7,479 nucleotides of DNA from an uncultured bacterium (GTDB taxonomy: Bacteria; CALINM01): NCBI GenBank assembly GCA_938045315.1, contig CALINM010000088.1:1-7479 (forward strand), in the 5' to 3' direction. Below are positions 2,362-6,348 of the stretch, piece by piece. The translations under genes were made by a program, and so were the position numbers. The notes below the pieces were generated by a model, which was not told the origin of the DNA, made no database searches, and worked only from the letters and a program-made list of their open reading frames with translations. How positions within the stretch are numbered: the stretch's first letter is position 1; every line of letters begins with the position of its first letter.

Positions 2362-2902
2362 TAGTAGACTCCAATTTTTTTTGAAAGACCTTAATTTCTG
2401 CATCAGTCAAAACATTCAACCCCTTTATCTCATCTAAAAGTGTCTGCTCTAGTTTTTCTACATTCAACAAATTATGACTAAAAATATGATTAATGAACCT
2501 TTTCAAAATCATATTTTCTCTCTGTAGATTTAGCATCTTCTTACATCTGGCTACTAAAAATAAGATTTCTTCAATTTTAAATGGCTTTGTAATGTAATCA
2601 TAGGCACCCAAATCAATAACTTTGAGAGCTGAATCTAATGTACTGTAAGCAGTAATTATAACTGTTGCTAAATCTGAATTCATTTTAAGCGAAGACTTTA
2701 TCAGTTCAATACCATCAATACCAGGCATCACCAAATCTGTAATAAGAATGTCAAATTTTTCACTTCTTAGAAAATCAATAGCCTCAAATCCATCCTTTGC
2801 AGCAATCACATAATATCCCTCTTTTGATAAAATTGAAAAGACTACATCCCTTGCTATTGGATCATCATCTACAACAAGTATCTTGAAACTCTTATCATCC
2901 AC
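2333..2902 (-). CDS. Response regulator, receiver domain with short helical C-terminal extension
   Basis: The 189-residue product starts with a full receiver domain (residues 5-122). It has acidic residues D12-D14, phospho-acceptor Asp56 (ILITDLVMP), Thr84 in the switch position and Lys106 (TKPF). The remaining 65 or so residues look helical and charged. They show no helix-turn-helix, no AAA+ module and no enzymatic motif, so an output by protein contact or phosphotransfer is more likely than DNA binding; this is inference. The start codon is GTG at 2902, whose G is also the last base of the preceding gene's TAG stop (TAGTG). AGGGA lies about 10 nt upstream and no ATG is better placed. The 3' end overlaps the HD-GYP regulator by 29 nt, so the two should be made together. 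The receiver closely resembles that of the HD-GYP protein (DLxMP, TKPF), and the pair may have arisen by duplication or share the downstream PAS kinase. Confidence 0.92.
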   Translation of the reverse strand: MDDKSFKILVVDDDPIARDVVFSILSKEGYYVIAAKDGFEAIDFLRSEKFDILITDLVMPGIDGIELIKSSLKMNSDLATVIITAYSTLDSALKVIDLGAYDYITKPFKIEEILFLVARCKKMLNLQRENMILKRFINHIFSHNLLNVEKLEQTLLDEIKGLNVLTDAEIKVFQKKLESTNGKAKSSGS

Positions 2903-3102
2903 TATTCATTTTCCCTAACTGCTTTGAGTACCTCTTCTTTAGCCTGGTTGATAATGTTTCTCTTTTTCGCTTCAGCAGATATACTTACAGTGTCTTTAGG
3001 TTCTTCTATGTTATCATTTTCGAGAATGTTATTAATCCTTTGTTTCAAGAATTTGTTGTAGACATTTGTTACTCCATTAATTTGGAAGGGATTAATAGTC
3101 AT
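2902..3102 (-). CDS. Small FlgM-like flagellar protein (66 aa, lacks the usual FlgM C-terminus)
   Basis: This is a real small gene. Its ATG overlaps the fliS stop in an ATGA, a strong Shine-Dalgarno (GGAGG, 8 nt spacing) lies inside the end of fliS, and its stop overlaps the next start by one base. The protein is 66 residues and highly charged, with no signal peptide or membrane segment. The segment KDTVSISAEAKK at about 36-47 resembles the conserved D-x-V-x-[IL]-S-x-E-A-K stretch of FlgM, the anti-sigma-28 factor, and NPFQINGVTNVYNKF near the N-terminus also resembles FlgM N-termini. FlgM proteins are usually around 90-100 residues and bind sigma-28 through a C-terminal helical part. Here only about 20 residues follow the motif, so sigma-28 binding is uncertain. 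The place after fliS is often held by fliT, but I see no clear FliT resemblance. The coding call is strong; the FlgM assignment is tentative. Confidence 0.85.
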   Translation of the reverse strand: MTINPFQINGVTNVYNKFLKQRINNILENDNIEEPKDTVSISAEAKKRNIINQAKEEVLKAVRENE

Positions 3103-3473
3103 TTAATTTGCCTCCATGCATCCCTTAATTCCATCATAATTTTCTCTACCACATTAAGATGAGAAATATCATTTTTTAAATTTGCTCTCGAGATCTCTTG
3201 CAAACAGAATATATACAGATCTTCCAAATTTTCAGCAATTTTGCCTCCCACATCTTTATTTAAGCTTCCCAATAACTCTTCTATTATTCTCGTCAACCTA
3301 AATATATTATCGACCTTTTCCTGTAAATCTTTAACTAAAATTGCTTTTTTCGCCCTATTAAGAAAATCTATTGCTCCATCATAAAGCATTATTAATAGCT
3401 CAACTGAATTTGTTGATGTTTTAACTACTGTCTCCATATAAGCATTTCTTGCTACTTGTAAATTATTAGTCAT
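3099..3473 (-). CDS. fliS: Flagellar export chaperone FliS
   Basis: FliS is the cytoplasmic chaperone that binds the disordered C-terminal end of flagellin, prevents premature polymerisation and delivers it to the type III export gate. The 124-residue product has the family's usual length and is all helical. Signature segments are the N-terminal ARNAYMETVVKTSTNSVELL, the LIMLYDGAIDFLNRAKKAI stretch at about 27-45, and a C-terminal helix ending LRDAWRQI. The ATG overlaps the fliD stop in an ATGA (4-nt overlap), and GGGGGA lies 8 nt upstream, so translation is probably coupled to fliD. The gene sits after flagellin, flaG and fliD in the usual filament-gene order. Nothing is missing or truncated. 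In some bacteria FliS also contacts FlgM or FliW; whether it does so here with the adjacent FlgM-like protein cannot be seen. Confidence 0.96.
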   Translation of the reverse strand: MTNNLQVARNAYMETVVKTSTNSVELLIMLYDGAIDFLNRAKKAILVKDLQEKVDNIFRLTRIIEELLGSLNKDVGGKIAENLEDLYIFCLQEISRANLKNDISHLNVVEKIMMELRDAWRQIK

Positions 3474-4855
3474 TTATTATTCCCCCATTTGCTTAAAGTC
3501 TGAGTTAAATAGTCACCATTTTTTTGAAGTCCTGCGATAGTTTTTTCAAGTTCATAAAATTTCTTTCTATATGAAACTTCCATTTGGTTTAATTTATCTT
3601 CTAAAGATTCAATTTTTTTATCCATGTTTGCTATCAACTTATTATAGTTTTCCTTCCTTTGTGGAATTATTTTTTCAAGATAATTATTTAAGTTATTCTC
3701 AAGGTTATTTATAACAGAATCAAAAGTATTGACTAATTCCACATAATTACTCCTTATAAAATTATCAAATCTAACACTATCAAGACTTAACACTCCTGTT
3801 TTATCATGATTTAAACCATAATTTGTTAAAGTTTTGCCATTATAAGAATCTGTTAAAATACTTCTAACCGAAGCTTTTAGTTGCCTCACTATGTAATCAT
3901 CTTTGATAGATGAATCATTTAAAGCAGTCATTAAATTATTATAATTTGATACAAAAGTATTCAAATTATTTATTGATTTGGGGTAATCTTTTTCAACATT
4001 CAACTTAATATATTCACCATTTGAGACATTTTGTAGCTGTAATGTAACATTTTCAACAATATCACTAATCTGATTTTTTGAGCGTGTAACAGTAATACCA
4101 TCAACTTCAACAACCGCGTCTATTGCTTTTTTTGATTGAGATAAATTTGCAATCCCACCAGAAACATTCCCATCCACATCATATGTGGCATTAAACGCTA
4201 ATCTTGAAAGGCCGCTATTATCAACCTCCTCGGGCAAAGTTTCAAAAATTCCATCATTATTTTCATCAACTCTAATTACAATTCTATTACTTGCACCTGT
4301 CTCAGTTGAAGTCAGAACAAGTCTATAACCAGATCCATCGTTTATTATATTTGCTCTTATTTTTAATCCAGTAGCATTAATTGCATTTTTTAGGCTACCA
4401 AGTGAATTGTTCATTGCATCTATTGTTATAATGTTCTCCTCACTGTCCCCAACTTTTATGGATATTTTTTGGACAGAATTTGCATCTAAATCAGCCACAG
4501 CAGCATCGGGAGTAGAAAATGTTTCAGAAAAAATACTTTGACTTTCTGCTAATCTAACCACTTTGAGAGTGTATATTCCCTCTTGTGCATTTTTAGAAGC
4601 AGATGCCGTTACAATATTTGGATTAGTTGTATGTACTTTATAGGGAACAAGATTTGCTCCTTTTAAGTCTTTGAGAGTGTCTTTTAAGTTTTTTAAAAGA
4701 TTTGTTAGATTGCCTAACTTGCTTATCTTCGTATTAAAATCACCTTTTTTCTTTTTCAACCCCTCGATAGGCTTTCTCTCCACAGCCATCAGTTGTTCTA
4801 TAATTTTTGCAGAATCTATTCCAGAAAATACACCAGTACCTGAAATAACCGTCAT
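3470..4855 (-). CDS. fliD: Flagellar filament capping protein FliD (hook-associated protein 2)
   Basis: FliD forms the oligomeric cap at the filament tip, where exported flagellin is folded into place. The 461-residue protein has the FliD N-terminal domain (SGIDSAKIIEQLMAVERKPI at 15-34, followed by a coiled-coil helix to about 70). A beta-rich middle follows, including a flagellin-IN-like motif (VEVDGITVTRSKNQISDIV near 245-265). The C-terminal domain contains FVSNYNNLMTALND, then TGVLSLDSVRFDNFI, and ends in a long amphipathic coiled coil (about 405-450). A DENNDG loop at 197-202 looks like a calcium-binding loop and is treated separately. It has no classical signal peptide, as expected for flagellar type III export. 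The start at 4855 has GGGAG 6 nt upstream and lies 3 nt after the flaG stop. The stop overlaps fliS by 4 nt. Length and ends are normal for the family. Confidence 0.97.
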   Translation of the reverse strand: MTVISGTGVFSGIDSAKIIEQLMAVERKPIEGLKKKKGDFNTKISKLGNLTNLLKNLKDTLKDLKGANLVPYKVHTTNPNIVTASASKNAQEGIYTLKVVRLAESQSIFSETFSTPDAAVADLDANSVQKISIKVGDSEENIITIDAMNNSLGSLKNAINATGLKIRANIINDGSGYRLVLTSTETGASNRIVIRVDENNDGIFETLPEEVDNSGLSRLAFNATYDVDGNVSGGIANLSQSKKAIDAVVEVDGITVTRSKNQISDIVENVTLQLQNVSNGEYIKLNVEKDYPKSINNLNTFVSNYNNLMTALNDSSIKDDYIVRQLKASVRSILTDSYNGKTLTNYGLNHDKTGVLSLDSVRFDNFIRSNYVELVNTFDSVINNLENNLNNYLEKIIPQRKENYNKLIANMDKKIESLEDKLNQMEVSYRKKFYELEKTIAGLQKNGDYLTQTLSKWGNNK

Positions 4856-4858
4856 ATT

Positions 4859-5182
4859 TTACTCCCTTTTCAAACTATTTTTTATATATTCTTTTATTCT
4901 CTCTTTTAAATTCATTAACTCCTCAGGTGGGATTTGTTTTATAAGATTACCTTCTTCATCTTCAATTCTTATGTAAACATTATTTTTTTCATCAATAACC
5001 CATAAAGCTTTAAAATATTTTGCTAATGGCTTCATCTCTTTTTTTGTTTTTTCATTTTTCTGAATCTCGTTATTATTTATATTGATTGATATAGAATCCC
5101 TATCCAATTTTTCAGGCTTTTTCTCAATATTATTAAGTTCTATATTGTTTATTGCTAAATTCGCAATAACTTTCGTAATCAT
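4859..5182 (-). CDS. flaG: FlaG family flagellar protein
   Basis: The 107-residue protein has a variable, Asn- and Lys-rich N-terminal half. It is followed by the conserved FlaG domain at about 52-107, with KYFKALWVIDEKNNVYIRIE and the family hallmark GNLIKQIPPEELMNLKERI (compare the D-x-x-T-G-E-V-I-R-Q-I-P-P-E-E signature). FlaG proteins are encoded next to flagellin and fliD in many bacteria and influence filament length or stability; the biochemical mechanism is poorly defined. It lies between flagellin (41-nt gap) and fliD (3-nt gap) in the same orientation. The start at 5182 has no Shine-Dalgarno at normal distance. The nearest strong one (AGGAGG) is 33 nt upstream, separated by a perfect 11-bp hairpin that could bring it close, as described separately. 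No signal peptide or membrane segment is seen. Confidence 0.93.
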   Translation of the reverse strand: MITKVIANLAINNIELNNIEKKPEKLDRDSISININNNEIQKNEKTKKEMKPLAKYFKALWVIDEKNNVYIRIEDEEGNLIKQIPPEELMNLKERIKEYIKNSLKRE

Positions 5183-5189
5183 TTTATTT

Positions 5190-5226
5190 CAGGGAGAGGG
5201 TTGTCCCTCCCCCTGCCTCCTTTTTA
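5190..5226 (-). promoter_or_regulatory. Hairpin between Shine-Dalgarno and flaG start (possible structure-bridged ribosome binding site)
   Basis: Read on the minus strand, the flagellin TAA (5226-5224) is followed by AAAGGAGG. Next comes an 11-bp stem, CAGGGGGAGGG paired with CCCTCTCCCTG (one G-U pair, loop ACAA, 5215-5190), then AAATAAA and the flaG ATG. Unfolded, the AGGAGG at 5221-5216 is 33 nt from the ATG, too far to work. Folded, the 26-nt hairpin leaves a 7-nt spacer, which is ideal. No run of T follows the stem, so it is not a standard intrinsic terminator. It may also protect the flagellin message from 3' exonucleases. Stem and spacing are seen directly; the function is inferred. Confidence 0.6.
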
Positions 5227-6348
5227 TCTACCTAAAAGCGCTAAAACTTGTTGTGGGCTCTGATTTGCCTGAGCAAGTACAGATATGCCAGCTTGCTGGA
5301 GAATCATAGACTTTGTCAAGTTAGCAGTTTCCACTGCAAAATCAGCATCCATAACTCTTGAACGCGCTGAAGAAACATTTTCTATTATATTGTTTAGATT
5401 CGCCACTGTGTACTCCAATCTATTGTTTATTGCACCGAGATCGCCCTTCTTGCTTAAAACATTCTCAATTGCTGTTGTAACGTAATCAATTGCATTTTGT
5501 GCATTTGCAATATTCGTAATATCTGCGGTAGAAAGATTTGCAGACAACGCATTAACTCTGGCATCTACTGAATTAATTGTAATTCTGTTGTTCAAAGCAT
5601 TTTCTGAACCAATCTGGAAAGTCCCAGAGCCAGCTGTAACATCAAATGTATTATCACTTGCTATATCTTGAATATTTGAATTAATAGTGACTTTTATGCC
5701 CAGTGCAGTAAAGTTAACTTCTGTACTATTAAGACCTGTTGGTACTGCCACATCATCAATAACCTGACTCTGACTTCCCACACTTAAAGTTAACTTTTTA
5801 CCACTGTTTGTTCCATCTTCAACTGTAAGAGTATATGTCCCAGCAGCTGCACCATTACTTGATATATCCTCTATACCGTTTGCCGCAGAGAGATTATTAC
5901 CTAAGTTACTTATCGATGAACCGAAACCACCATTTAACACATTCTGATTGTTAAATTTTGTAGAATTCGCAATTCTATCTATTTCTGTCTTTAACTGTTG
6001 GAATTCAGCATTAAGAGAAGATCTATCAGTACTTGTATTACTATCATCTGCTGCCTGAACTGCTAACTCTCTCATTCTTTGAAGCATGTTGTGTATTTCA
6101 TCCAAACCACCTTCAATAGTTTGTGCAAGTGAAATTGCATTATTAGCATTTCTAACTGCTTGAGATAATCCTCTTATTTGAGCAGTCATACGTGATGCGA
6201 TAGCTATACCTGCAGCATCATCTTTAGCAGTGTTGATTCTAAGGCCCGATGACAACCTTTGCATGGCTGTTGTCAAAATACCTTGGCTTTTTGTAAGATT
6301 CTTTTGAGCGTTAATTGATAATACGTTTGTGTTAACTACTAATGCCAT
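5224..6348 (-). CDS. fliC: Flagellin (filament subunit)
   Basis: This is the major filament protein, exported by the flagellar type III system. The 374-residue product has a classical flagellin N-terminal region, residues 1 to about 140 (MALVVNTNVLSINAQKNL, then LSSGLRINTAKDDAAGIAIA). It contains QRMRELAVQAA at 90-100, part of the D1 helix which in many bacteria is recognised by TLR5. A variable, Ser/Thr/Asn-rich central part (about 145-270) forms the exposed domain. The C-terminal region (about 275-374) is conserved and includes SSARSRVMDADFAVETANL, ending SPQQVLALLGR. No cysteine is present. The start at 6348 has AAGGAGG six bases upstream. A sigma-28 promoter and a roughly 100-nt structured leader precede it, and it heads the operon. 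Size and ends are intact. Gene naming varies (fliC, hag or flaA) between groups. Confidence 0.98.
   Translation of the reverse strand: MALVVNTNVLSINAQKNLTKSQGILTTAMQRLSSGLRINTAKDDAAGIAIASRMTAQIRGLSQAVRNANNAISLAQTIEGGLDEIHNMLQRMRELAVQAADDSNTSTDRSSLNAEFQQLKTEIDRIANSTKFNNQNVLNGGFGSSISNLGNNLSAANGIEDISSNGAAAGTYTLTVEDGTNSGKKLTLSVGSQSQVIDDVAVPTGLNSTEVNFTALGIKVTINSNIQDIASDNTFDVTAGSGTFQIGSENALNNRITINSVDARVNALSANLSTADITNIANAQNAIDYVTTAIENVLSKKGDLGAINNRLEYTVANLNNIIENVSSARSRVMDADFAVETANLTKSMILQQAGISVLAQANQSPQQVLALLGR

Follow-up and report, generated by a model that had tools for sequence, protein, structure and literature searches.

The window, the whole stretch of 7,479 nt that was analysed, carries the genes for flagellin, FlaG and FliD one after another on its minus strand. 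A first-pass annotation of this DNA had pointed to a Shine-Dalgarno sequence (SD) lying far ahead of the flaG start codon, with a hairpin exactly between the two. The features of the region are:

5224 to 6348, minus strand: flagellin gene, 374 aa (Pfam Flagellin_N, 3.4e-46, and Flagellin_C, 8.7e-26)
5226-5224, minus strand: flagellin stop codon TAA, read from the sequence
5216 to 5221, minus strand: SD AGGAGG, 2 nt past the flagellin stop and abutting the stem, identical in the congener
5190 to 5215, minus strand: whole hairpin, 11 bp, found by folding and by pattern search and conserved in the congener
5215-5205, minus strand: 5′ arm of the stem, CAGGGGGAGGG
5204-5201, minus strand: loop, ACAA
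5200-5190, minus strand: 3′ arm of the stem, CCCTCTCCCTG
5183 to 5189, minus strand: outer spacer AAATAAA, 7 nt from stem to ATG (also 7 nt in the congener)
5182-5180, minus strand: flaG start codon ATG
4859 to 5182, minus strand: flaG, 107 aa (Pfam FlaG match slightly below the curated cut-off, E 1.4e-4; 44% identical to the congener protein, with the MITKV start conserved)
3470 to 4855, minus strand: fliD, the next gene of the operon (FliD_N and FliD_C)

Ribosome-binding site and hairpin at the flaG start

The junction reads TAA-AA-AGGAGG-CAGGGGGAGGG-ACAA-CCCTCTCCCTG-AAATAAA-ATG along the minus strand, and every number in the annotated layout (AGGAGG, 33-nt gap, 11-bp stem, ACAA loop and 7-nt AAATAAA) proved right. 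An in-frame TGA lies 9 nt upstream of the flaG ATG both here and in the congener, which rules out a start just upstream, and the N-terminus MITKV is kept between the two species despite synonymous codon changes, which supports the annotated ATG as the true start of flaG. Alternative start codons were rejected on these two grounds.

The AGGAGG is separated from the ATG by 33 nt along the linear sequence, or by 7 nt once the hairpin is folded out. In sampled genes of the same genome (SD match of at least 5 nt within 40 nt) the spacing is mostly 4–9 nt, so the flaG SD, with gaps of 33 nt here and 36 nt in the congener, is too distant for normal initiation. Under a commonly used spacing penalty a 33-nt linear gap would be prohibitive and 7 nt nearly free. 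The duplex of AGGAGG with the anti-SD has a predicted energy of −11.0 kcal/mol, calculated with the consensus anti-SD rather than this MAG's own 16S end; the 16S 3′ end, sought in order to confirm the anti-SD, was found in neither MAG (this genome or the congener). The stretch from the stem to the ATG contains no free SD-like run, and an inner GGGGGAGGG that could pair with the anti-SD (−11.8 kcal/mol) is buried in the stem. This agrees with the earlier claim that flaG has no other good SD.

The stem comprises 10 Watson-Crick pairs and one G-U pair and has a predicted energy of −21.0 kcal/mol when folded alone (−19.6 kcal/mol for the congener hairpin); in the fold of the isolated junction both the SD and the ATG are predicted to be open. 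The opposite strand has C-A in place of the G-U and a weaker predicted energy, −17.6 kcal/mol, which speaks for a role in the flagellin-flaG transcript; an antisense element was rejected on this basis. In shuffled windows the expected number of matches to the hairpin pattern is 0, even when as many as 3 mismatches are allowed. Stems of 10 bp or more that include 7 or more G-C pairs are found three times in a 176-kb sample of stretches from this genome, once at the flaG junction and twice elsewhere, and the order SD, hairpin, 4–11 nt, start codon occurs once, at the flaG junction, with no further split sites in the sample. The junction had no Rfam match above the gathering score; the window's two sub-threshold hits both lie elsewhere.

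Upstream of flagellin, the leader contains a hairpin of the classic CsrA-site type, AGGT-AAGGAT-ACCT with an ANGGAN hexaloop (6389-6376, minus strand). The congener has TGGT-AAGGAA-ACCA, where U-A replaces A-U at one pair, a change of both partners that keeps the pairing. Further ANGGA motifs lie at −80 and −13. Given this leader hairpin, these motifs and the presence of both the csrA and fliW genes in the genome, flagellin looks to be under CsrA/FliW control. The csrA gene is apparently split across two contig ends by an assembly break: the fragment on C30 adjoins a flagellin-like gene (probably flgL) and that on C219 adjoins fliW. At about 6430-6416 (minus strand), some 73 nt before the flagellin ATG, lies AAAAAGGAGGTGA, a near-perfect extended SD with no start codon after it, which is kept in the congener at −84. 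Its flanks are complementary (GGGG..CCCC here, AAGGGC..GCCCTT in the congener) and might pair so as to keep it within a large loop; RNAalifold on the two sequences did not recover a stem around it. This element is possibly a standby site or a CsrA site. A sigma-28 promoter-like sequence, TAAA-N15-GACGATAT (6481-6455, minus strand), may drive the flagellin operon. A 66-aa protein with no Pfam match is encoded at 2902-3102 (minus strand), with fliS on one side and a response regulator gene on the other; its DTVSISAEAKKR stretch may resemble the C-termini of FlgM.

The junction in a congener and in other bacteria

The class comprises three genomes, and the comparison rests on one flagellin-bearing congener; in the third genome, of lower completeness, no flagellin was seen. 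The congener junction reads TAA-TTA-AGGAGG-CAGGGAGAGGG-GGCTAAA-TCCTCTCCCTG-AATAAAA-ATG. AGGAGG lies 3 nt past the flagellin stop, again flush with the stem, and the outer spacer, AATAAAA, is again 7 nt long, while a loop longer by 3 nt brings the total gap to 36 nt. A split ribosome-binding site would be expected to hold the outer spacing constant, here at 7 nt, while the loop is free to vary. The first-pass annotation had proposed a search of relatives for a kept stem and outer spacing, and the congener has both, with the total distance shifting from 33 to 36 nt through the loop.

Flagellin fourfold-degenerate sites are 38.7% identical between the two species against 35.6% expected from composition, and neutral positions are thus saturated. 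Despite this saturation the SD and stem arms are identical at 26 of 27 positions (P about 3e-10 against the fourfold rate), and selection on the SD-stem element is therefore well supported by this comparison. Two stem pairs differ between the species, G-U/A-U and G-C/G-U, and pairing is kept in both. The compensatory changes that had been proposed as a check were thus found in part: the two varying pairs were preserved by changes on one side, and no pair was changed on both. For this reason there is only moderate support for selection on the pairing itself and not on the sequence, and the arms, conserved as sequence, may have a sequence-specific role.

FlaG loci with their flanking stretches from 386 diverse genomes, together with flagellin loci, yielded 68 flagellin-flaG junctions, 66 of which were scored. 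Of the 66, 48 carry a strong hairpin, defined as one of at least 8 pairs with a shuffle p ≤0.05, and T-rich tails follow only 6 of these 48 hairpins. In equal stretches of 80 nt, strong hairpins were found after flagellin in 47/68 cases, inside flagellin in 4/67 and after flaG in 5/33. A strong hairpin thus looks to be a common feature of the ends of flagellin messages. The 5′ arms of surveyed junction hairpins lean towards purines (mean 0.65; at least 75% in 15 of 50 arms, at most 25% in one of 50), so that SD-like runs are often buried in them.

Recognised SDs at the other junctions usually lie 3′ of the hairpin. Among surveyed junctions with a strong hairpin, only the window and the congener have a good SD before the hairpin and none after it, and only in these two is a credible start found no more than 7 nt from the stem, in a survey whose start-calling prefers starts with a nearby SD and is therefore biased against detecting other split sites. 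One further lineage (L146) that appeared to have the split layout was rejected, since its start was mis-called and the likely start, MEVKN, lies further downstream.

Comparison with known structured initiation sites

In phage T4 the SD and AUG of genes 38 and 25 are brought closer by an intervening structure, from 22 to 5 nt and from 27 to 11 nt, respectively, and mutations that destabilise the stem reduce initiation (PMC3014915; T4 split initiation regions are described in Nivinskas 1999 and Malys and Nivinskas 2009, as cited there). Gene 38, which the first-pass annotation had named as a precedent, is thus a sound one. Like these genes, flaG has a remote SD with a hairpin exactly between it and the start and a usable effective spacing (5 nt in gene 38, 11 nt in gene 25, 7 nt in flaG): the SD gap is over-long, a stable hairpin leaves 7 nt and the structure is kept in one congener. 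As at the flaG junction, the gene 25 structure is conserved among close relatives only. The flaG junction differs from the T4 sites in belonging to a bacterial chromosomal operon, in its gap of 33–36 nt and in its 11-bp GC-rich stem. Its hairpin moreover appears to be part of a widespread flagellin 3′ feature.

In E. coli thrS a long hairpin stays folded while the ribosome accommodates it (PMC3936740), as would be the case at flaG. The distal part in thrS is described as a single-stranded region (domain 3) and is treated as a standby-site case (PMC3936740), whereas in flaG it is the only good SD. In E. coli, too, a flagellin message carries structured RNA at its 3′ end: the fliC 3′-UTR includes the FliX sRNA. 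FliX is Hfq-bound, has a short form that includes a REP sequence and, unlike this junction, has no flaG start nearby (PMC10578931). Apart from the thrS standby case, a limited literature search found no bacterial chromosomal SD beyond a hairpin, which is weak evidence of absence.

Candidate explanations for the junction hairpin

We lean, on balance, towards an explanation in two layers: a widespread flagellin 3′-end hairpin which, in this genus, falls within the ribosome-binding site of flaG and is looped out in the manner of the T4 genes. The first layer is the hairpin after flagellin, recurrent in bacteria and mostly no intrinsic terminator, which would protect or define the 3′ end of the message. 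The second is that in this genus the only good SD of flaG sits 5′ of that hairpin. The ribosome would bind the distal SD with the hairpin still folded, giving an effective distance to the start of 7 nt instead of 33; the hairpin would remain folded on the 30S subunit, and flaG initiation would depend on it.

Strong hairpins occur at most flagellin-flaG junctions, even where the SD follows the hairpin, and for that reason the hairpin's primary role is probably to serve the 3′ end of flagellin mRNA, as the first-pass annotation had suggested in second place, with the bridging of the SD gap a lineage-specific consequence or addition. The original proposal that the hairpin brings the SD to the start is thus partly supported: the layout in the congener favours it, as far as two species allow, and the survey tempers it. 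Against a split site stand the occurrence of the split layout in two species only and the lack of a pair changed on both sides; junction hairpins being widespread, the stem may also exist for another reason. More tentatively, one hairpin could do both things, capping the flagellin message and, folded on the ribosome, acting as the spacer-shortener of the flaG split site, so that flagellin and FlaG levels would differ through a single element.

The main rival is coupled reinitiation from the flagellin stop, in which the hairpin serves the flagellin message only, as 3′ protection or as a processing end, and the stem is no help to initiation. Ribosomes ending flagellin would be held by the AGGAGG and then pass or traverse the hairpin to reach the ATG. 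We regard this as possible but rather doubtful. It is consistent with an SD that follows the flagellin stop by 2 nt here and by 3 nt in the congener, and with strong hairpins at most junctions regardless of the position of the SD, 42 of 48 lacking a T tail, but it leaves unexplained both the constant 7-nt outer spacing with a changing loop and the SD abutting the stem in both species. The footprint of a terminating ribosome extends about 10 nt past the stop codon, so such a ribosome would touch only the first 1–2 nt of the stem and, by this textbook footprint, leave it closed. Coupled reinitiation could plausibly coexist with a split site.

A partial transcription terminator or attenuator that sets flaG-fliD-fliS below flagellin is quite unlikely. 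Such an element would be well placed between a gene that is presumably very highly expressed and genes needed at low dose, and 6 of the 48 surveyed hairpins do have T-rich tails. Here, however, the stem is followed by AAATAAAATG, and in the congener by AATAAAAATG, neither of which is a U-tract, and the hairpin is absent from the list produced by a terminator scan. A sense-strand intrinsic terminator was rejected because in both species no U-tract directly follows the GC-rich stem; the same absence disfavours the alternative raised at the outset that the stem is only a terminator. Least probable of all is that CsrA binding is the main purpose of the SD-proximal AAGGAGG and that the hairpin places CsrA so as to silence flaG along with flagellin. 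In favour of this, the genome encodes CsrA and FliW, a hairpin of CsrA type lies in the flagellin leader and AAGGA adjoins the stem. Against it, the motif lies outside the hairpin loop, unlike high-affinity CsrA sites, and GGA is part of any strong SD; CsrA control of the junction is possible, but nothing specific to the junction backs it.

Taken as a split site, the junction is plausibly a chromosomal instance of the arrangement known from T4, set in a seemingly general junction hairpin. The split sites with an SD beyond a hairpin that could be documented in this analysis are those of phage. A conserved chromosomal case, if true, would extend the device to bacteria themselves, and start-site predictors relying on linear spacing would miss such sites. 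With a hairpin recurring between flagellin and flaG, the excess of flagellin over its operon partners becomes a directly testable question.
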